A stretch of DNA of 64,000 bases. It comes from Methanocorpusculum labreanum Z (GTDB lineage: Archaea; Halobacteriota; Methanomicrobia; Methanomicrobiales; Methanocorpusculaceae). Positions 1 through 10,257 of this stretch are shown here, piece by piece (position 1 is the first letter of the stretch; each line of letters starts with the position of its first letter). A model generated the notes under the pieces. The model saw nothing but the letters and a program-made list of their open reading frames with translations. It had not been told where the DNA came from and did no database searches. A program made the position numbers and the translations under genes. The DNA lies in NCBI RefSeq assembly GCF_000015765.1, contig NC_008942.1, positions 1,565,921 to 1,629,920 of the forward strand. The letters are read 5' to 3'.

Positions 1-77
1 GGTGCAAACTTAAATTAATTTGCTTTGTGTGTTTTGATGCAGGTCATATGCATCTTTACATCGGAGGCAGGAGGTAA

Positions 78-2513
78 ATGTCAGTGAATACGAAAAATAT
101 TATTTCAATTATACTCCTTGCAGTAATCATATTTTGCCTGTTTACCGGAACGGTATCGGCAAGATATGCAACTGCATCGGGCGAAAATGCAGGCATAAAT
201 CTAAGTGATACGGTGTATCGAGGAGAGAATAATCTGGATTTTTCAGCATTTTCAAGCGGAGGTTATACTGTTGACTACCTTCAGCATGTAACTGACGGAG
301 ATCAGATTGCCCTCATAAATCAGATCGCTTCAGTTGGACAAACACAGGCTCCGGGAACATATGGGGCATGGAATAATTCCGCTGGCAGACTCGGATATAC
401 AGTATGCACTATCGCGGAACTTAATCTTGGGAAAATTGCGGTAACGCCTTATGCAACTACCGTTACCGACTCGAATCCGAACTCGATCTCAAAAGCTGCT
501 CAAGTTGTCTTTTATATTTCCGGAAGTAATCTCCACCCGGACCAACTAAATGGAAACTGGAATGGATTCACTATCACAAATACCCAGACGGGGGTTCAGA
601 CGCAGGAGATTACAAATATCGGGGGCAGCACTCAGTCACTCAGGAATGTACCCGATCCGACCGATAAAACCAATGCGAATTATGCATTTAAACTGGTTGA
701 CCAATCCCTGATCCCTGCCGGCGACTCAACACCGGTCACGATCTCATTTAACATAGAGTTGAACGGTCTTTCAACACAAAAAACACACATTCAATACTCC
801 TTTACTGCAGTACAAAGTACGTTCAGTCTTACCGGAGCAAATATTGCTGCAGGCAACACCGGCACGGCTGTATTGACCGGCATCCCCTTTACTGCATATT
901 CTGTTGTTCTTTCTGAAACCAGAAGCGACGCACCTTATTTCAATCCTGCAGAGGGTGTAGTCATCATTGATGCTCATACAATTACCGCGACACCGGGATG
1001 GAACGGGACTATGTCCCTTCCAATAACGGTACCTGCCAATGCATCGGCCGGCAATTATCCGATAACTGCCTCGGGATCGGGTACAGTAAAAAGTGCATCA
1101 ATTACTGTTGCTGCAACCACCATTTCGCTGATATTTGATGCTCCGCCAAGTGATGCCGTATCTGGTCTCTTTGCAGAAGGCGATTACATCAAACTTTCCG
1201 GCACGGTAAAAGGTGCACTATCCAATGTTGATATTTATTTCTATATAACCGGACCAAACCTTCCTGAAAATGGTGCGAGCCTGACTGGAACACCCGTCGT
1301 TGACGGAGACCCGTCAACATTCACCATATTCACCTACAATATAGTGCTTAATTTATGGGAGGGAGGGTGGATCACCAGCGGATTCGAACCAGGAACCTAC
1401 ACGATACATGCCAATCTCCAACCCTACGGATACATAGAAAGCAGCACACCGAAGGGGAAGGGATACAGCAGTGATATTTCCCACGATTATGTGATAAGTG
1501 ACCAGAGCATTCACGCAAAATCCGACGAGACCAACAGCGGCTACTTTGCCCAGGGCGATCATGTCCGCTATAATATTTCTGCGAGAGGGAGTCCGGGAAC
1601 AAAGGGAGGTATGTATGGTGACGTCCGCTGGTACATCATTGGATCAAACTTCAGATATGCGGATATGAAATCAAAGTATCTGCTTATCGAAGACACCTCA
1701 ATGTTCGGACTTTTTGCCCCTCAGGGAACAACGAGTTTTGAATACAACCGGTCGTTTTCCTATGATCTCGGTCCGGGAACATACTATCTTATCCTCCAGC
1801 ATCCCGGTCCAAACGCTGTATTTGACGTAACGCCGGATATAACCGGAGGATCTTTCAGTGTAATTAACACAGCCTGGGGCAGCAGTGCCAATCTTGGAAC
1901 ACAGCAGTCTGATAATGCTGCATATACCTTAACAAATGCGATCTCTGATGCCAAATCTGATGATCTGTATGTTATCACGGAATTTACTATTGAAAAACCA
2001 AGGATCGAAATAACCCAATTGGGAAACACCCCCATTGGGACCACCATAACAATTCAAGGAACCACGAATTACTACACCGATGACACCTTCAGTCTGAAGA
2101 TCCAGAGACTTGATTTTGAAAATCCGGACAACAACATAGCAATGATGGTTCCAACTGAACGGGTAAAACCGTCATCTGTATCACCCTATGCAAAGTATAT
2201 GTCTCGTCCCTTCTCGTTTGGTGAAATTGATACGTCAACCTGGTTCCCGGGAACCTATGAAGCAAAAGTCACCAACATCGACACCGGCGTTACAACCGCC
2301 ATGACGTTTACCGTTGGAGGAGAATCGGAAGTTGACTCAACGGTTACCGGTGAAACATACGATCCAGCCCTAACCACCCAGCAGACACCGGAACCGGTGC
2401 AGACAAATCTGCCGGTTTCAACACCTATCCCTACCCAGACGAAATCATCCGGCTTTATTTACGTTGTCCCGGCAATTTTTGCGGGACTTATCCCCTATCT
2501 CAGGAGGAAGTGA
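78..2513 (+). CDS. S-layer-like / DUF3821-type secreted surface protein
   Basis: This 811-residue protein is probably an extracellular envelope protein. It starts with a Sec-type signal peptide (hydrophobic residues about 8-27, ending TGTVSA). A segment with a GENNLDFSAF motif follows, resembling the N-terminus of methanogen DUF3821 surface proteins, and then several beta-rich Ig-like stretches. A Thr/Pro/Gln-rich linker (about 755-790) precedes one C-terminal membrane helix and a short RRK tail, so it is likely anchored to the outer face of the membrane. The ATG follows a good GGAGGT ribosome site. The stop codon abuts the ATG of the next gene, so it probably heads the pilus-like operon. Family assignment is by recall of sequence pattern; its partner is unknown. 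Confidence 0.75.
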   Translation: MSVNTKNIISIILLAVIIFCLFTGTVSARYATASGENAGINLSDTVYRGENNLDFSAFSSGGYTVDYLQHVTDGDQIALINQIASVGQTQAPGTYGAWNNSAGRLGYTVCTIAELNLGKIAVTPYATTVTDSNPNSISKAAQVVFYISGSNLHPDQLNGNWNGFTITNTQTGVQTQEITNIGGSTQSLRNVPDPTDKTNANYAFKLVDQSLIPAGDSTPVTISFNIELNGLSTQKTHIQYSFTAVQSTFSLTGANIAAGNTGTAVLTGIPFTAYSVVLSETRSDAPYFNPAEGVVIIDAHTITATPGWNGTMSLPITVPANASAGNYPITASGSGTVKSASITVAATTISLIFDAPPSDAVSGLFAEGDYIKLSGTVKGALSNVDIYFYITGPNLPENGASLTGTPVVDGDPSTFTIFTYNIVLNLWEGGWITSGFEPGTYTIHANLQPYGYIESSTPKGKGYSSDISHDYVISDQSIHAKSDETNSGYFAQGDHVRYNISARGSPGTKGGMYGDVRWYIIGSNFRYADMKSKYLLIEDTSMFGLFAPQGTTSFEYNRSFSYDLGPGTYYLILQHPGPNAVFDVTPDITGGSFSVINTAWGSSANLGTQQSDNAAYTLTNAISDAKSDDLYVITEFTIEKPRIEITQLGNTPIGTTITIQGTTNYYTDDTFSLKIQRLDFENPDNNIAMMVPTERVKPSSVSPYAKYMSRPFSFGEIDTSTWFPGTYEAKVTNIDTGVTTAMTFTVGGESEVDSTVTGETYDPALTTQQTPEPVQTNLPVSTPIPTQTKSSGFIYVVPAIFAGLIPYLRRK

Positions 2514-4250
2514 ATGGCATCCATACAGCTTAGCAAAAAAACATTCCAGAATCTGATCATTGGAATGGGAATTGTTATATTAATAACGGTTGCCGCCATC
2601 ATATTTTTTGGAAACGGAGGATTTTCCCAATTTACACCGGAACAACACGCAGATAATCCGGAAAACATAACGGAACAGACCGGACCCTGGGGAATGAAAA
2701 CCTTTGAATGGGAGTACAACGGTAATGAAAACATCGTAACAGTGCTGGTAACCAAAGATGCATACAACATGTACAACACCGACTTCGGAGGGACAGATAT
2801 CCCGAATGATTTGAGCAACTATATCATCATCTCAGGAGACGGGGGTTGTATTGCCGATACAGCACGGCAGTTTTCCAATATTGCAGTGAATAACGCATAT
2901 GACAGCGAAGAAACGATAAATCTCGTGCTTTCATTTGTTAAGTCTCTCTCTTACCAGACGGACAGCGAAACAGGACATTCATCGAAGTATCCCCGGGCAC
3001 CGGCAGTTACCCTTGCAGATGAAACAGGTGATTCCGAAGATCTGTCTATTCTGGCATCGGCTCTTTTAGAAGAGATGGGATACGCATCGGCACTTTTGTA
3101 TTACCCGCTGAAATATGACCGCCTCACAATAATTCCGGATGCAACAGCCCTTGGACTGATTGGAACAGACCCGGAAAACGGAATGATCTACGGAGTAAAC
3201 ACGACGTATCCTAAACAGACAGTCAGTGTCAGCGCTGAAAAAACGTCCACATATCCACTATACGGAGTTACTAACGCAGTAAATCCATCCGGCAAAGATA
3301 CCGAAGGATGGTATGCAGGGAATGGAACCTGGAATATAGATAATCTGTCCGGATCACTTGGATATGCACTCTATGTTCCGTCATCCAATTCCTTCTCGGC
3401 AGAATTCACGCCTGACTTCCCAAAAAACATCGGCGCCAACGAAAAAATTACCTACACGATAGAAAATGCTTCGTGGACCGTGCCGGTAAAAACAGTTTGG
3501 ATTGCAGATACCGCCTCGAAAGGGACACCGGTCTCTGCGTATAATTCACAGACACCGGTCGTTATTCAGACCGACATACTCTGGAGCATGAACTCATGCG
3601 ACTCTTCACATAAAGACCAACTTGACCTCGGATTACTCCTTGATCTGGACCTGTCAACAGAATTTCCAACAACAGACTCAACTCTTACCGGGGGAAAATT
3701 CTGGGCGGCAGGCCATCCGGTTTACTCGCCGATCTATGTCTCGGAAATGAATGCCGACTATTACCTGGGGATCGAACAGCAGAAAAATGCACAGAAATAT
3801 CTGGAAAGCACGTGGTATCCGTCAGGCATCTCATGGGATGTCCTCTACGACAAATGGAAACTCTATGAACATTTCCTGACAGTAAAAGGAACTCCGGGAA
3901 CGTTGTATACCCCGGCAGGGACAGCAGAGCAGGTAATCGAAACACCCTGGAGAATAACCTACACTATCGACGGAATATATGATCAGAACGTTCTTGATAC
4001 GGATATGGACTATATGACGCCGTATGCCGATCTGAACATCGCAGTCTATAAAATCGGCGATGACGGCAGTATTTCATTAGTTGAAATTACCGGATGGCAG
4101 GGACACGCAAATGCCGATACATATGATACAAGCAGAATGTATCCGCCGGGACATTATGCGATAGGCATATTTTCCCGAAATGTATATGCCTCGGTTGTAA
4201 TCGAATTCTCAGGCAAAAACGAAAATACGGCATATGCGGGAGGAATCTGA
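2514..4250 (+). CDS. Membrane-anchored transglutaminase-like protein, catalytic Cys replaced by Ser
   Basis: This 578-residue protein has one N-terminal membrane helix (about 14-33) and a long extracytoplasmic region. Residues 158-200 (YPRAPAVTLADETGDSEDLS and following) match the archaeal transglutaminase-like signature, in which a Cys lies in a GDCED context and a His lies some 30 residues on. Here Ser174 replaces the Cys, and the expected His region reads YDRLTIIPDATALGLIG with no His. The fold is therefore probably kept without classical thiol catalysis. The gene starts directly after the surface-protein stop codon and overlaps the pilus ATPase start by one base. I infer a structural or binding role in surface-filament assembly. 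Confidence 0.7.
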   Translation: MASIQLSKKTFQNLIIGMGIVILITVAAIIFFGNGGFSQFTPEQHADNPENITEQTGPWGMKTFEWEYNGNENIVTVLVTKDAYNMYNTDFGGTDIPNDLSNYIIISGDGGCIADTARQFSNIAVNNAYDSEETINLVLSFVKSLSYQTDSETGHSSKYPRAPAVTLADETGDSEDLSILASALLEEMGYASALLYYPLKYDRLTIIPDATALGLIGTDPENGMIYGVNTTYPKQTVSVSAEKTSTYPLYGVTNAVNPSGKDTEGWYAGNGTWNIDNLSGSLGYALYVPSSNSFSAEFTPDFPKNIGANEKITYTIENASWTVPVKTVWIADTASKGTPVSAYNSQTPVVIQTDILWSMNSCDSSHKDQLDLGLLLDLDLSTEFPTTDSTLTGGKFWAAGHPVYSPIYVSEMNADYYLGIEQQKNAQKYLESTWYPSGISWDVLYDKWKLYEHFLTVKGTPGTLYTPAGTAEQVIETPWRITYTIDGIYDQNVLDTDMDYMTPYADLNIAVYKIGDDGSISLVEITGWQGHANADTYDTSRMYPPGHYAIGIFSRNVYASVVIEFSGKNENTAYAGGI

Positions 4251-6001
4251 TGCGTCTTCCCTCATTCAAAAAAACGGATGAAACAACTACCGTACTTTCT
4301 GTGACGAAAGATGATGAGTCCGCAGTTATCAAAGAGATCTTCTCGGAAAATATGACGAGTTCAGCAGAAAAAAACCAAGCCCCCATGAACATAAAGAAAG
4401 AGGGAAAAAAACCATCTGCACGTTTGAAGAAGACAAAAAACCACAAAAAATCTGCCGAAGCGAAAGAAACCACCTTCAGCATCAAATCTCTTCTGTCTGG
4501 AAAACCTGAACAAAAGACCGTCTTTGAAGAGCCGCCGCAGGTTCTCCACCTGCCGCCGTTTGAAACTGAATTTGAAATCCTCGACAGATACTGGCTCACC
4601 CCGCCGTATGCATATGCCAACATTTACCGTGATGAATACGACAATGTCCATTACCAGATGGTAGAGCCGAAACTCAATGAAAAAGAACTCGTTGTCTTAG
4701 AGGAAACGTTCGAACATCTCAGGAGCATGCTTGTCTACGACACGGTGCGAAAACGCGGTGAGCTTGAACTTGACCCGTACCTTCTTAGGGAAGTCATAAC
4801 CAACTTTGACCCGGACATAACGCCGGAAAGGCGCGACACGCTCATTTATTATCTCAACAGAAACTTTCTGGGATACGGCAAACTCGACCCCCTTATGCAT
4901 GATGAAAAAATCGAAGATATCACCTGTAATGGTGCAGACATTCCTATCTTCCTCTATCACAGAAGATTTGCCAACGTTGAAACCGACATTCTTTTTGACT
5001 CGACCGAACTGAACAAATACGTTTTGAAACTTGCTCAGAGAGGAGACAAACAGCTGTCCTTAACATCGCCGATCATTGATGCAGCGCTGCCGGAAGGTTC
5101 GCGTGTCCAGTTGACCTACTCTGACATCATTTCGTCCAAAGGAAGTTCCTTTACCGTCAGAAAATTCAAAGCCGAACCAATGACCCCGGCGGATCTCGTC
5201 GTCTCGAATACCTACAGCAGTGAACTCATGGCACACCTCTGGCTCGCTGTAGAAAACAGAAAAAGTATGATTATTGCCGGCGGAACGGCCAGTGGTAAAA
5301 CCTCGACGATGAATGCAGCGTCGTTTTTTATTCCGGCGGTTGCCAAAATCGTCTCAATCGAAGATACCCGGGAAATTCAGCTGCCCCATGTCAACTGGCT
5401 CCCGATGAAAACGCGTGAGAGTGCCGCAAATATTTCCGGTGTTGGAAACGTCAGTATGTTCTCCCTGTTAAAAGCTGCACTTAGACAAAGACCTGAGTAC
5501 ATCATTGTCGGAGAGGTCAGGGGCGAAGAAGCCCAGACATTATTTCAGGCAATGAACACCGGACATACAACCTACTCAACCCTGCATGCCGGAAACGTCA
5601 AAGAGGCGATTAACCGGCTCGTAAATGATCCAATTAATGTGCCCGCGGCAATGTTTGGCGCACTTAATCTTGTCGTCATTCAAAGTCTGCTCTACGGAGA
5701 AGGAAAAGGGTTCAGGCGCTGTTTATCCTTAAACGAGATCATGGTCAATGATGATACAATTGCATGGACACCCCTGTTTCAGTGGAACCACACAACGGAC
5801 CGGTTTGATAAAGTTTATACCCGTTCCGCAGTTTTCGACAGCATTGCCTATCAGAACGGCTGGACCGATGAACAGATGCAGGAGAGAATCAACAGCAAAA
5901 TACAAGCTCTCGATGAGATGGCGGCTTCGGGAAAAACCAACCCGGATGCAGTGGAAAAAGCAATAATTGAGACGATTCTGCGCGAACGAAAGCAATCCTG
6001 A
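4250..6001 (+). CDS. Type II/IV secretion system (archaeal pilus) ATPase
   Basis: This 583-residue GspE/PilT/ArlI-superfamily ATPase should power assembly of a type IV pilus-like filament on the cytoplasmic side. Residues 1-95 are Lys/Glu-rich and probably disordered. The conserved core follows, with Walker A GGTASGKTST near residue 342, an Asp box (EDTREIQLP), and a Walker B and His box (IIVGEVRGEE, then GHTTYSTLHAG) near 415-445. These match the catalytic core of archaeal secretion ATPases. Its ATG overlaps the preceding stop, and the TadC-like membrane gene follows within about 10 bases. The charged N-terminal extension may act in membrane docking. Confidence 0.93.
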   Translation: MRLPSFKKTDETTTVLSVTKDDESAVIKEIFSENMTSSAEKNQAPMNIKKEGKKPSARLKKTKNHKKSAEAKETTFSIKSLLSGKPEQKTVFEEPPQVLHLPPFETEFEILDRYWLTPPYAYANIYRDEYDNVHYQMVEPKLNEKELVVLEETFEHLRSMLVYDTVRKRGELELDPYLLREVITNFDPDITPERRDTLIYYLNRNFLGYGKLDPLMHDEKIEDITCNGADIPIFLYHRRFANVETDILFDSTELNKYVLKLAQRGDKQLSLTSPIIDAALPEGSRVQLTYSDIISSKGSSFTVRKFKAEPMTPADLVVSNTYSSELMAHLWLAVENRKSMIIAGGTASGKTSTMNAASFFIPAVAKIVSIEDTREIQLPHVNWLPMKTRESAANISGVGNVSMFSLLKAALRQRPEYIIVGEVRGEEAQTLFQAMNTGHTTYSTLHAGNVKEAINRLVNDPINVPAAMFGALNLVVIQSLLYGEGKGFRRCLSLNEIMVNDDTIAWTPLFQWNHTTDRFDKVYTRSAVFDSIAYQNGWTDEQMQERINSKIQALDEMAASGKTNPDAVEKAIIETILRERKQS

Positions 6002-6010
6002 GAGTTGAAC

Positions 6011-7816
6011 ATGAGACAGAATCCCGATATACTCGATAAAATCCTTTTCAACACAAAACTGGAAAATGCCCTGCGTTCGGCACACATTACCGTTCCTGTA
6101 GACCAGTACATGATGCTTACGATACTGGTAACCGTATTTACCGGCATTATGACTGCGCTAATTGGGGTCCTCATAACGGTTATGGGCATTACAATTCCCG
6201 TCATCTCCTTTTTGCCGGTATGGATACTGATTATCATCAGCTGTATACTTATTCCAATCGGCGTCTTCATCTGCTTTTATTATTACCCGGTTCTGGAGGC
6301 ACAGGGCAGGAAAAATAAAATCGAACAGGATCTTCCCTTTGCAATAACCTACATGCAGGCCTTGTCCTCGACAATCACCCTGTATGAGATTTTTCGAAGC
6401 GTGTATGAAGCGGCTGACCTTTACGGAGAAGTTTCACGGGAATGCGGACTCATTGTAAGAGATGTAGAGCTTTTCGGCGAAGATCTGCTGACGGCAATAG
6501 AAAACACCATCAAAATAACGCCGTCGGAAAATTTCCGTGAATTATTGAATGATCTTGCCCTTGTCTACCGGAGCGGCGGGAATATGAGGAACTTCTTCAA
6601 CTCCAAATCAGAGTCCTACCGTGAAATTGCCAGACAGCAGCTGGATGCTCTCTTACAGTTTTTGGAAATGATTGCAGAGGTCTATGTTACGGCATTTGTC
6701 GCAGGCCCGATTGCCATTATGATTATGCTTGTTGCCCAGAACCTTTCGGGTCAGAATACCATGGGAAATATTATGCCGATCATGATGGTTTTCCTGCCGC
6801 TTGGCGCAGTAATACTGATTGTGATCCTGTATATTCTCCTGCCGCCGGACAACCTTGGAATTGCCAGCAGGGAAATCAGAGACAGTGAATATGGACCAGA
6901 CCTTCTAGAATCAGGGACTAATACTGAGCCGGATGCCGAGTTCATCAAACAGATCAACGCAAGAAAAAATATCATAAAATATCTCAATATCCTAAGGCAC
7001 CCAATTAAATTTTTCATCTCGGATTATACAATCCCCGGGATCATCGGTGTGCTGCTTGCATCACTGGTCGGCGTATCCTGGATTACCGGAACCTTTGCAA
7101 AAATATTTCCGTCAATGACAATGGAAGTTCTCGTTTGCATCATCATTATCGCAGCTTCCCTTCCGCTGATGATGGCGTATGAGATCAGAAGACGCTATGT
7201 AACCAAAGTGGAAAAACAGCTTCCGGAATTCTTGCGGGAGATTGCCGATATGCGTGATATCGGCATGACACTGCAGGGAGCCATATCAATGATCTCCGGA
7301 AATAAAACCGGCGTTCTTTCATCGGAAATCAAAATCGTAACAAAGGAGTTATCATACGGGGCGCATCTTTCAAACGCTTTAGTCAGGATGGAAGAACGTA
7401 TCGGTCTTGTTTCGGTAAAAAGAGCAATTTCGTTATTAGTGAAAGCAAGTGAGGTTACAGATTACGTCAGGGAGATCTTAACGATCGCCATCTCTGATCT
7501 GGAACATTATGTAAAGATGAAAAGCAAGCGTCTGAATGTCTCGTTTGTCTATCTTGCGGTCATTTACCTCTCATTTGGAATTTATCTCTACTCGGCATAT
7601 CAGATGAACGTTGCATTTATCTCAAGTTTCACGTCTTTTGACATAACCTTCGACCTGACGTCAAACAAAACTGACATGTTTAACATCGGAATCATTCTGG
7701 CATTTTTCTCAGGAATCATGGCAGGACAGATGTCGTCAAACAGTGTTCTCTGCGGACTCAAACATTCGATTATCATGCTTATTGCAACGATCATAACATT
7801 TGTATATATTATCTAG
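6011..7816 (+). CDS. Type II secretion F / TadC-like pilus platform protein
   Basis: This protein of about 600 residues is the multi-spanning partner of the upstream ATPase. It holds two GspF-type (T2SSF) units: residues about 85-280 and 395-545 each have cytoplasmic helices followed by membrane segments, and further hydrophobic pairs lie at the N-terminus, the middle and the C-terminus. This duplicated layout is typical of archaeal ArlJ/PilC-like platform proteins. I chose ATG 6011; a TTG at 6005 in the same frame would add two residues but leaves no room for a ribosome site. The stop is followed at once by the first pilin. Confidence 0.9.
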   Translation: MRQNPDILDKILFNTKLENALRSAHITVPVDQYMMLTILVTVFTGIMTALIGVLITVMGITIPVISFLPVWILIIISCILIPIGVFICFYYYPVLEAQGRKNKIEQDLPFAITYMQALSSTITLYEIFRSVYEAADLYGEVSRECGLIVRDVELFGEDLLTAIENTIKITPSENFRELLNDLALVYRSGGNMRNFFNSKSESYREIARQQLDALLQFLEMIAEVYVTAFVAGPIAIMIMLVAQNLSGQNTMGNIMPIMMVFLPLGAVILIVILYILLPPDNLGIASREIRDSEYGPDLLESGTNTEPDAEFIKQINARKNIIKYLNILRHPIKFFISDYTIPGIIGVLLASLVGVSWITGTFAKIFPSMTMEVLVCIIIIAASLPLMMAYEIRRRYVTKVEKQLPEFLREIADMRDIGMTLQGAISMISGNKTGVLSSEIKIVTKELSYGAHLSNALVRMEERIGLVSVKRAISLLVKASEVTDYVREILTIAISDLEHYVKMKSKRLNVSFVYLAVIYLSFGIYLYSAYQMNVAFISSFTSFDITFDLTSNKTDMFNIGIILAFFSGIMAGQMSSNSVLCGLKHSIIMLIATIITFVYII

Positions 7817-7825
7817 GTGAAATCC

Positions 7826-8251
7826 ATGGAATTAACTGAAAAAGATGAGGGAATCACATCGGTCGCCGGAGAGATGCTGATTCTGGCGCTGATACTCATA
7901 CTGGTGTCCCTGTTTGCTGTGTCAGCATTTAATCTGTTGCCGGGCGAACGCGAGACGGTTGTTGATGTTTCGATGAATACATCAGCCGACACACTTTATT
8001 TCTGGCACAAAGGAGGGGACTGGGTTGAAGGAAAAGACCTTACCGCAGTTTTAACCCCGACCAACGGCGGAGAGAAAATTGTTCTTGAGAAGATTTCCCT
8101 CACCGACTGTTTTGGAAATGAGTCTTCAGTTTTTGATCTGGGTGGGTGTTATGCAGTCGACCTCTCGACAGTTCCGTCCGAAAGCTACAGTTTACGGCTG
8201 ACAACGGCAGAAAATGTCATTTATGCAAAAGACGGGTTGGTGATTTCATGA
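7826..8251 (+). CDS. Archaeal type IV pilin-like protein 1
   Basis: This 141-residue protein has a class III (type IV pilin) signal: a short charged N-terminus, then EGITSVAGEMLILALIL, whose hydrophobic helix leads into a small beta-rich domain. Proteins of this kind are cut before the hydrophobic stretch by a prepilin peptidase and polymerised by the ATPase/platform pair encoded just upstream. ATG 7826 lies six bases after AGGTGA, so it is preferred over the GTG at 7817. Its last bases overlap the start of the next pilin (ATGA). Confidence 0.82.
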   Translation: MELTEKDEGITSVAGEMLILALILILVSLFAVSAFNLLPGERETVVDVSMNTSADTLYFWHKGGDWVEGKDLTAVLTPTNGGEKIVLEKISLTDCFGNESSVFDLGGCYAVDLSTVPSESYSLRLTTAENVIYAKDGLVIS

Positions 8252-9051
8252 AAAAAACACAGGAAGAAGCGGTTTCAACGGTAATTGCTATGATGCTGAT
8301 TCTGGCAATTCTTTCAACCTGCATAGCGGTGTATACGACAACCTACGTTCCCGGACTAAAACAACAATCTGAAATTATCCACAGCGAGGATGTAAAACTC
8401 GTCTTTGACAGATTTGCATCGGATGTAGATAATATGTACAGTCTTGGAAAACCAGCGCAGTTTACCGAGACATTTGCACTTGGAGGAGGGAATATTCTTC
8501 TCTCGCCGGTAAAATCGAGTGGAACCGTTGAGGCAGAAAATTACGTAATCGGAACGCTCATAATTCCGGGAAAACCCGATTATACAATAACACAGGTGAA
8601 TCTCACATACGCTCCGTCATTTACTTCCTGGGAAAAACAGGGATATGCTTATGAAAACGGTGTTGTATGGATCACCAAAGATACCAAAAGAACACCGGCA
8701 TCCCAGACGATACTAACAATAGAAGAAGGAATCTCCAGAGAAGAAAGCATTATAGGAGATAGGATTTCCGGGAAATACATCACCATAGCAACCGACGGAA
8801 ACAACAATGCCACGGTAACGATACCAAAGATGAGCATTACTGAGAAAAACAGTATGACCGGCAGCGGGAATGCAAACATTCTGATGAATGCGTCAATTAC
8901 GCCGATTGCAGACATACAGCTTGCAGCAGGAGAATGTATCGAAATTTTCGACACAAACAGCACTTCGGTTTTCAGATATCCCGAAGTACCGAGTTCGAGT
9001 AATATGAATCTGAGCGTCAGATGGCTGAATATAACGGTGAGTGCAGAATGA
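8248..9051 (+). CDS. Archaeal type IV pilin-like protein 2 (large)
   Basis: This is the largest pilin of the locus (267 residues). It begins MKKTQEEAVSTVIAMMLILA, with the charged leader and hydrophobic helix of archaeal pilins, followed by a domain of about 235 residues that repeats short beta strands and is rich in Ser, Thr and Asn. The frame is open further upstream, to 8146, but ATG 8248 is the proper start: it overlaps the previous stop as ATGA, has GGTGAT before it, and puts the pilin leader at the N-terminus. Its size suggests a tip or minor subunit; that is inference. Confidence 0.8.
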   Translation: MKKTQEEAVSTVIAMMLILAILSTCIAVYTTTYVPGLKQQSEIIHSEDVKLVFDRFASDVDNMYSLGKPAQFTETFALGGGNILLSPVKSSGTVEAENYVIGTLIIPGKPDYTITQVNLTYAPSFTSWEKQGYAYENGVVWITKDTKRTPASQTILTIEEGISREESIIGDRISGKYITIATDGNNNATVTIPKMSITEKNSMTGSGNANILMNASITPIADIQLAAGECIEIFDTNSTSVFRYPEVPSSSNMNLSVRWLNITVSAE

Positions 9052-9530
9052 AAAATGATGGAGTTTCCCCTGTTGTCGGGATAATGCTTTTACTTTCGAT
9101 GACAATTATCGCAGCCGGCGTTCTTGCAGCATTTGCAGGAGGGATCGGGTCAGTTTCAGAACCAACACCTTCGGTAGATCTCTCAGTATCGTCATACGGC
9201 TCGGGAGACAATCTCAGACTGCTGTTTGAACAGAAAAGCGGGAATGGATTGACACCTGCCGATATAAAAATTTCATTTTTGGTGAAAAATCCAGATAAAG
9301 ATGATTATGGTGGTTCATTTATGCTTACTGAACTTACAGACGAGACGGCATGGACTGCCGGAGAGATACTCACGACGGAAAATATCACGAAAACTTCAGA
9401 TATTTTAGGAATATCAGCTGATGAGTTAAAATTAGCTGCAAATGTATCCACCCCGGTTGAGATCAAAATCTATCATCTGCCGTCTTCTACAATCATTTAT
9501 CAGTCAACTATCCTTTTGGAGGAAACATGA
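9048..9530 (+). CDS. Archaeal type IV pilin-like protein 3
   Basis: This 160-residue pilin has the textbook Pilin_N start: MKNDGVSPVVGIMLLLSMTI, with GVSPVVG before the hydrophobic helix. The remainder is a compact domain without Cys. ATG 9048 is preceded by GGTGAG and overlaps the previous stop as ATGA. An in-frame ATG at 9021 would put nine extra residues before the pilin leader, so I reject it. With GVSPVVG it is a good candidate for the main structural subunit. Confidence 0.85.
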   Translation: MKNDGVSPVVGIMLLLSMTIIAAGVLAAFAGGIGSVSEPTPSVDLSVSSYGSGDNLRLLFEQKSGNGLTPADIKISFLVKNPDKDDYGGSFMLTELTDETAWTAGEILTTENITKTSDILGISADELKLAANVSTPVEIKIYHLPSSTIIYQSTILLEET

Positions 9531-9988
9531 ATTTCAAAAAAGAGAATGGGGTCTCAGAAGTTGTGGGAGTGCTGTTAATGCTCACCGTTACGATTCTGTT
9601 GGTCAGCAGTGTTGCTATCATCATGAATAATTCAGTCGAAACTACGGAAAAGCCCATTACGGCAAATGTTGTGGCAACCGATATCGATGACGGGAATGTT
9701 ATTTTGGAACTTATTTCGGGAGACTCATTTTCTCTTGACATGATTAGTATCAAACTTGGTATTCGTGAGGAATCGGACAAATACATTATCCTTAAAGGTG
9801 ATTCTTTCGAGTCTTATACAAACAGTAGGATCATTTCTCTTGGAGACAGGTTCAAAATACTTGGTGAAAATAACGGAACTACGATTAAAATAGAGAATTT
9901 CCTTGTATCCAAAGGTAAACATCTGATGTATACAATCTACGATTCAGAGGGAAAACCGATCTCGTCAGGGGAAATATTAGTTGCCTGA
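9527..9988 (+). CDS. Archaeal type IV pilin-like protein 4
   Basis: This is the last gene of the operon (153 residues). It starts MNFKKENGVSEVVGVLLMLT, again with the pilin leader (GVSEVVG) and one N-terminal hydrophobic helix, then a domain of about 115 residues. A strong ribosome site (GGAGG) lies in the end of the previous gene and the ATG overlaps its stop. No further gene follows before the convergent tRNA, so the operon seems to end near 9990. Its paralogy to the preceding pilin is visible in the leader but not beyond it. Confidence 0.84.
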   Translation: MNFKKENGVSEVVGVLLMLTVTILLVSSVAIIMNNSVETTEKPITANVVATDIDDGNVILELISGDSFSLDMISIKLGIREESDKYIILKGDSFESYTNSRIISLGDRFKILGENNGTTIKIENFLVSKGKHLMYTIYDSEGKPISSGEILVA

Positions 9989-10183
9989 GTACAGGGGCAG
10001 CAGATACATTCCATCACGACCATCAGCAGGAACAAAATACTTTTGCCAATTTTTGATTTGAATAATTTAACTGCAAATCAGTTTTTGGCACTGATGACTG
10101 AGTGTGGAAAACTATAAATCCATTTTTTGATGATAAAGAAGAAAGAATGTAAGTATTACGTATTTTTAAAAACAAAAAAACAG

Positions 10184-10257
10184 TGGACCCGCTGAGATTC
10201 GAACTCAGGACCTCCGCCATGTCAAGGCGACGTCATAGCCAACTAGACCACGAGTCC
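10184..10257 (-). tRNA. tRNA-Val (anticodon GAC)
   Basis: Read on the minus strand, the sequence folds as a full cloverleaf. It has a 7-bp acceptor stem GGACTCG/CGGGTCC with one G-T pair, a D arm, and a 5-bp anticodon stem TCGCC/GGCGG around loop TTGACAT, which gives anticodon GAC. The 5-bp T stem CTGAG/CTCAG encloses TTCGAAT. The discriminator is A, and CCA is not encoded. No intron is seen. Confidence 0.95.

Follow-up and report, generated by a model that had tools for sequence, protein, structure and literature searches.

The window analysed here, a stretch of 64,000 nucleotides, corresponds to positions 1565921-1629920 of the single-contig genome (1,804,962 bases) of Methanocorpusculum labreanum Z. 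The initial annotation described an eight-gene pilus locus with overlapping or abutting genes at 78-9988. All eight open reading frames have been confirmed to be present there on the plus strand, nearly touching or overlapping, and the junctions and the matches to T2SSE, T2SSF and Pilin_N agree with this description. The genes and motifs of the region are as follows:

1-77, plus strand: window end of a 269-base divergent promoter region, with a TATA-like TTAAAT 68 bases before S and a GGAGG ribosome-binding site
78-2513, plus strand: S, an S-layer-type protein (811 aa) with signal peptide, beta domains, a Thr/Pro-rich stretch and a basic-ended C-terminal membrane tail
2514-4250, plus strand: T (578 aa), with a TM helix (8-33), a LapG/transglutaminase-like domain predicted to be inactive and a C-terminal beta-sandwich (~430-570)
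3027-3041, plus strand: GDSED motif of T (residues 172-176), Ser174 standing at the catalytic Cys site of LapG and of active paralogues
4250-6001, plus strand: E, type IV pilus (T4P) secretion ATPase of the VirB11/T2SSE family, Walker A GGTASGKT
6005-7816, plus strand: F, membrane platform of TadC/FlaJ type with two T2SSF domains; TTG start, alternative ATG at 6011
7817-8251, plus strand: p1, Pilin_N protein with class-III signal; GTG start, alternative ATG at 7826
8248-9051, plus strand: p2, pilin-like, weak DUF7289/Pilin_N
9048-9530, plus strand: p3, Pilin_N protein, class-III signal MKNDG/VSPVVG
9527-9988, plus strand: p4, Pilin_N protein with class-III signal

S and T abut (0 bases), T and E overlap by 1 base, E and F lie 3 bases apart (9 with the alternative start), F and p1 0 (or 9), and the junctions between p1, p2, p3 and p4 are 4-base ATGA overlaps. 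Judging from this gene spacing, 78-9988 may be read as one transcript. The interval is incomplete on the left, since six PilA-type pilin genes, each with an SPV(V/I)GVMLMLVVTI stretch, lie upstream of base 1 of the window on the minus strand (genome 1561599-1565728), divergent from S. The full locus comprises 6 + 8 genes. No family was found when the upstream region was searched against Rfam. The pilus locus is followed by a tRNA-Val (gac) gene on the minus strand (window 10183-10257).

E matched T2SSE of Pfam at 1e-32 (113.7 bits, cut-off 24.9), as expected of a T4P secretion ATPase, and the two T2SSF stretches of F (4.5e-23, 82 bits, cut-off 25.2) identify it as the platform. Pilins are represented by p1, p3 and p4, all above the Pfam cut-off for Pilin_N, the match of p2 being weak. 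One prepilin peptidase gene (Peptidase_A24, 33.4 bits, cut-off 26.5) is located elsewhere in the genome, at 111132-111461. Taken together, the genes make up a complete archaeal type IV pilus locus, one that also encodes an S-layer-type protein of its own. An archaellum was rejected, E scoring 370.9 bits against the FlaI/ArlI equivalog cut-off of 550 (NCBIfam). A second T4P-type ATPase/platform locus, devoid of S and T, is found near 1.495 Mb, and the third T2SSE match in the genome (1437289) was discarded as a pilus motor as it looks like a PIN-domain ATPase instead.

The S-layer-type protein S

The first gene product had been called S-layer-like, and both sequence and predicted structure bear this out. 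S matched the S_layer_MEMAR profile (NF041431) with 144.7 bits, under the curated cut-off of 600, the best stretch spanning residues 368-796. The model of S (pLDDT 79.4) matched the S-layer protein of Haloferax volcanii, 7ptp, with Z 16.9 over 606 residues (rmsd 15.2) and 7ptu with Z 13.5 over 389 residues (rmsd 8.8); the next-best matches were generic Ig/fibronectin-type chains with Z <=9.6. S is thus predicted to share the overall fold of the Haloferax-type S-layer protein. The large rmsd with 7ptp would mean that the domains are shifted or strung out differently, and a shared fold alone shows no function. The C-terminal tail of S consists of SSGF, a hydrophobic stretch and RRK, and PGF-type tails are found in several relatives. 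S was rejected as the main S-layer protein of the genome in favour of a better NF041431 match (383.5 bits) at 64.7-66.9 kb, the best S-layer candidate of the genome, which ends in a PGF tail and to which S is distantly related as a paralogue (23% identity). Weak kinship to the S-layer family was also seen in part of a soluble-looking protein encoded at ~846 kb of the genome, whose N-terminus we take to be DUF4062-like.

As a multi-domain beta protein with a membrane tail, S could alternatively be a surface adhesin, or an accessory coat protein, that is linked to the pilus, held or displayed at the membrane by T and forms no S-layer port. Fibronectin/invasin-like Ig chains do match the model, more weakly, and in three relatives (G002, G010 and G018) S is shorter and matched only from ~residue 325 onward. 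Against this, the S-layer protein is the best structural match by a wide margin and over nearly the full length, and the sequence kinship to the MEMAR family and the PGF-type tails of relatives point the same way; we consider an adhesin rather unlikely.

S-layer proteins are normally Sec-exported, and the signal peptide of S is ordinary-looking. Both facts speak against the locus being a secretion system of pseudopilus type, through which S and other proteins would be exported without a long pilus being made. T4P and T2SS machines are related and S is encoded within the unit, as such a system would have it, but the presence of six divergent PilA pilins is in keeping with a filament and we regard a pseudopilus as improbable.

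The LapG-like protein T

The second gene was initially annotated as encoding a transglutaminase-like membrane protein, a designation that holds. T itself gave no match in Pfam. The profile of T relatives matched LapG in PDB (E 3.3e-5), and in that alignment the GDsED of T aligns with the GDCED of LapG. The AlphaFold model of T is mediocre overall (pLDDT 65.8), the core of the LapG-like domain reaching ~80-94, and LapG is among its best matches (4u65 with Z 9.1, 3.7 A, 139 residues by VIA-align; 4fgp with Z 8.3). On the strength of this model T has a LapG/transglutaminase-type fold.

The catalytic residues are missing. T of the window carries Ser174 at the Cys site and Ala at the His site, and in the 33 non-identical pilus-linked relatives of T the Cys column is occupied by S (26), R (5), T (1) or K (1) and the His column by A (26) or Y (7). 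Among 21 paralogues without the C-terminal domain His is kept in all and Cys in 18; the difference in Cys loss gives a Fisher value of 1.4e-11, which ignores shared descent. As Cys and His are gone in every pilus-linked copy examined, T is by sequence a conserved pseudoenzyme. Four more transglutaminase/LapG-like proteins of the genome (in L124, L125 and L126), two of them encoded side by side, keep Cys and His; L126 corresponds to genome 1800500-1804962.

The loss bears on the notion that T is an enzyme, either a transglutaminase or a LapG-like protease, which processes pilins or S. Among solved structures LapG is indeed the closest to T in sequence and one of the closest in fold, and pilin processing or degradation has been proposed for such proteins by Makarova et al. 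2016 (PMC4858521). An enzymatic role was nevertheless rejected on account of the lost Cys and His: 33 of 33 pilus-linked relatives have Ser, Arg, Thr or Lys for Cys and Ala or Tyr for His, and since Arg or Lys could not act as the nucleophile, Ser as an alternative nucleophile is no general escape. An active T is very improbable, and the 'envelope-modifying machine' suggested for the locus is not supported.

The C-terminal part of T has relatives of its own. For residues 418-578 the matches are short proteins (224-358 aa) with a membrane or lipid anchor that adjoin E in loci lacking S, with E values, among 2,724 ORFs, of 2.5e-6 (L064), 1.7e-4 (L072), 3.1e-4 (L071) and 6e-4 (L065), besides 3.6e-20 in L067, a short contig in which the presence of S cannot be judged. 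Profile-profile comparison (hhalign) of the C-terminal domain with the short anchored proteins gave 92% over 92 columns, and <=1% with other proteins of the loci. In L061 (G053, 6293-8954) two separate genes precede E, one for a LapG-like protein that retains Cys and His, the other for a short anchored protein. This pair resembles the two halves of T; its short protein is one of the seven in the profile-profile comparison and was not significant against the single profile (E 0.59). A fold search with the C-terminal domain returned generic beta-sandwich matches (Z ~7-8), which are uninformative, and ArlF/ArlG were not among the matches listed. The beta-sandwich may have belonged to the pilus first, the dead LapG-like domain being a later addition that is found together with S; the order of events is our inference.

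Conservation and co-inheritance

The search covered 61 relatives and 232 genomes of the class and, in addition, a non-exhaustive phylum sample of 393 genomes. Full-length T was found in 34 loci of 29 genomes from four families, all of the same order; at E 1e-40 none was detected outside this order in the non-exhaustive sample of 393 phylum genomes. S immediately precedes T in 32 of the 34 loci (31 scored loci and the window). The neighbourhood is thus conserved among relatives, contrary to the refuting case named in the initial annotation, which upholds the earlier view that the first two genes are tied to the pilus genes. The two exceptions are G103, ending at a contig edge, and G021 with a truncated T and no S. 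In the latter, an incomplete genome, the truncated T directly follows a divergent pilin, by deletion or misassembly.

Since it is kept in 34 loci of 29 genomes, albeit loci that are not phylogenetically independent, the arrangement of the genes is far beyond chance. The divergent pilin cluster is present at most of the relatives' loci for which the flank is available. In G043a, G122, G119b and G120b the E gene lies beyond the divergent pilins, but S-T has kept its place with F and the pilins. Between the trees of S, T and F the pairwise distances agree with r of 0.91-0.94, and with those of E at 0.80-0.84 (S-E 0.84, T-E 0.81), so that S, T and F seem to be inherited as a set. Neither S nor a full T is present in 13 comparable E-F loci (L061-L066 and L068-L074). 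That E-F-p1-p2 also occurs without them could make S and T mere neighbours with no functional tie to the pilus, a view hardly credible given their joint presence in 32 of 34 loci, which persists where E has been displaced, and the congruence of the trees.

Several loci show signs of rearrangement or decay. L042 (G012) is 0.91-0.97 identical in DNA to the window and to L004 from ~-2.9 kb, in the divergent pilins, through S, and 0.71-0.89 from T onward, making the S/T boundary a likely recombination breakpoint. In a congeneric genome (G016, L074) the locus looks decayed, with E and F in pieces and S and T absent, and in L121 (G112) the reading frames of S, E, F and p2 are each broken in two, through either decay or sequencing errors. 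T of Methanocorpusculum parvum XII, 94% identical to that of the window, was the sole match of a single-protein contig scan.

Proposed role and relation to known systems

To our knowledge, the way in which archaeal pili cross the S-layer, or hold on to it, is poorly understood except for the archaellum. On balance the locus seems to encode a euryarchaeal type IV pilus of PilA type together with a wall-anchoring set of its own. In such a system E and F would assemble PibD-processed pilins from the membrane, the shaft being probably made of the six divergent PilA-like pilins, with p1-p4 as a probable initiation or tip set. S would be a pilus-dedicated protein of S-layer fold, probably present in the S-layer around the pilus or replacing units of it, and would let the pilus through the layer or hold it. 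T would be a single-pass protein facing the space beneath the S-layer. Of its two domains, the beta-sandwich is probably a base part common to pili of this kind, and the dead LapG-like domain probably serves in binding, S being the simplest partner. With no catalytic residues left in any of the pilus-linked copies examined, T probably anchors the pilus in the cell wall without any chemical modification of the wall. The strictly co-inherited S-layer-fold protein and the dead LapG-like protein thus provide two named candidates for passage or hold of a pilus at the S-layer. We tentatively raise the further possibility of a pilus-specific S-layer port in some methanogens, with a dedicated S-layer subunit and a membrane-anchored pseudo-protease together serving as the exit and anchor of the T4P in the S-layer, an archaeal counterpart of the bacterial secretin.

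Makarova et al. 2016 (PMC4858521) described this T4P class of euryarchaea, and M. labreanum is named there as having its ATPase, platform and PilA genes together at a single locus. The paper counts S-layer proteins among the additional T4P components and connects the transglutaminase family arCOG03450 with T4P in Methanomicrobiales, treating its role as unknown and suggesting that it might process pilins. The presence of S-layer and transglutaminase genes beside pilus genes is therefore already in the literature. In the open-access literature no report of the lost catalytic site or of the fold of S was found, nor any treatment of the arCOG03450 family beyond that paper, both being weak evidence of absence.

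The euryarchaeal clade-2 T4P (PilB3/PilA type) combine, as here, a VirB11-type ATPase, a TadC-like platform and PilA-like pilins in one locus, and our locus is assigned to this clade-2 class because M. labreanum is named in PMC4858521. As to the 'distinct filament' once suspected, the locus belongs to a T4P class of euryarchaea that had been described before. In PMC4858521 the transglutaminase is treated as a peptidase of unknown role, whereas the pilus-linked copies analysed here are catalytically dead and carry a fused beta-sandwich, which in related loci is a protein by itself. This argues against the published guess of pilin processing by T4P-linked transglutaminases, at least in this order; T4P-linked transglutaminases are also known from Methanococci (arCOG02164). 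The periplasmic cysteine protease LapG (4fgo, 4u65) resembles T around the GDxED motif and in fold; T differs in lacking the catalytic Cys and His and in adding a membrane anchor and the C-terminal domain. The S-layer glycoprotein of Haloferax volcanii (7ptp, 7ptu) is alike in fold to the predicted S over nearly its full length, but the two are 13% identical, the gene of S lies within a pilus operon, and a different protein is the best S-layer candidate of the genome. In the archaellum, FlaF/ArlF binds the S-layer (Banerjee 2015, as cited in PMC4858521). T has no demonstrated homology to ArlF/ArlG and E falls below the FlaI cut-off; the likeness is one of idea, in that a beta-sandwich component held in the membrane would connect a machine of T4P type with the S-layer.
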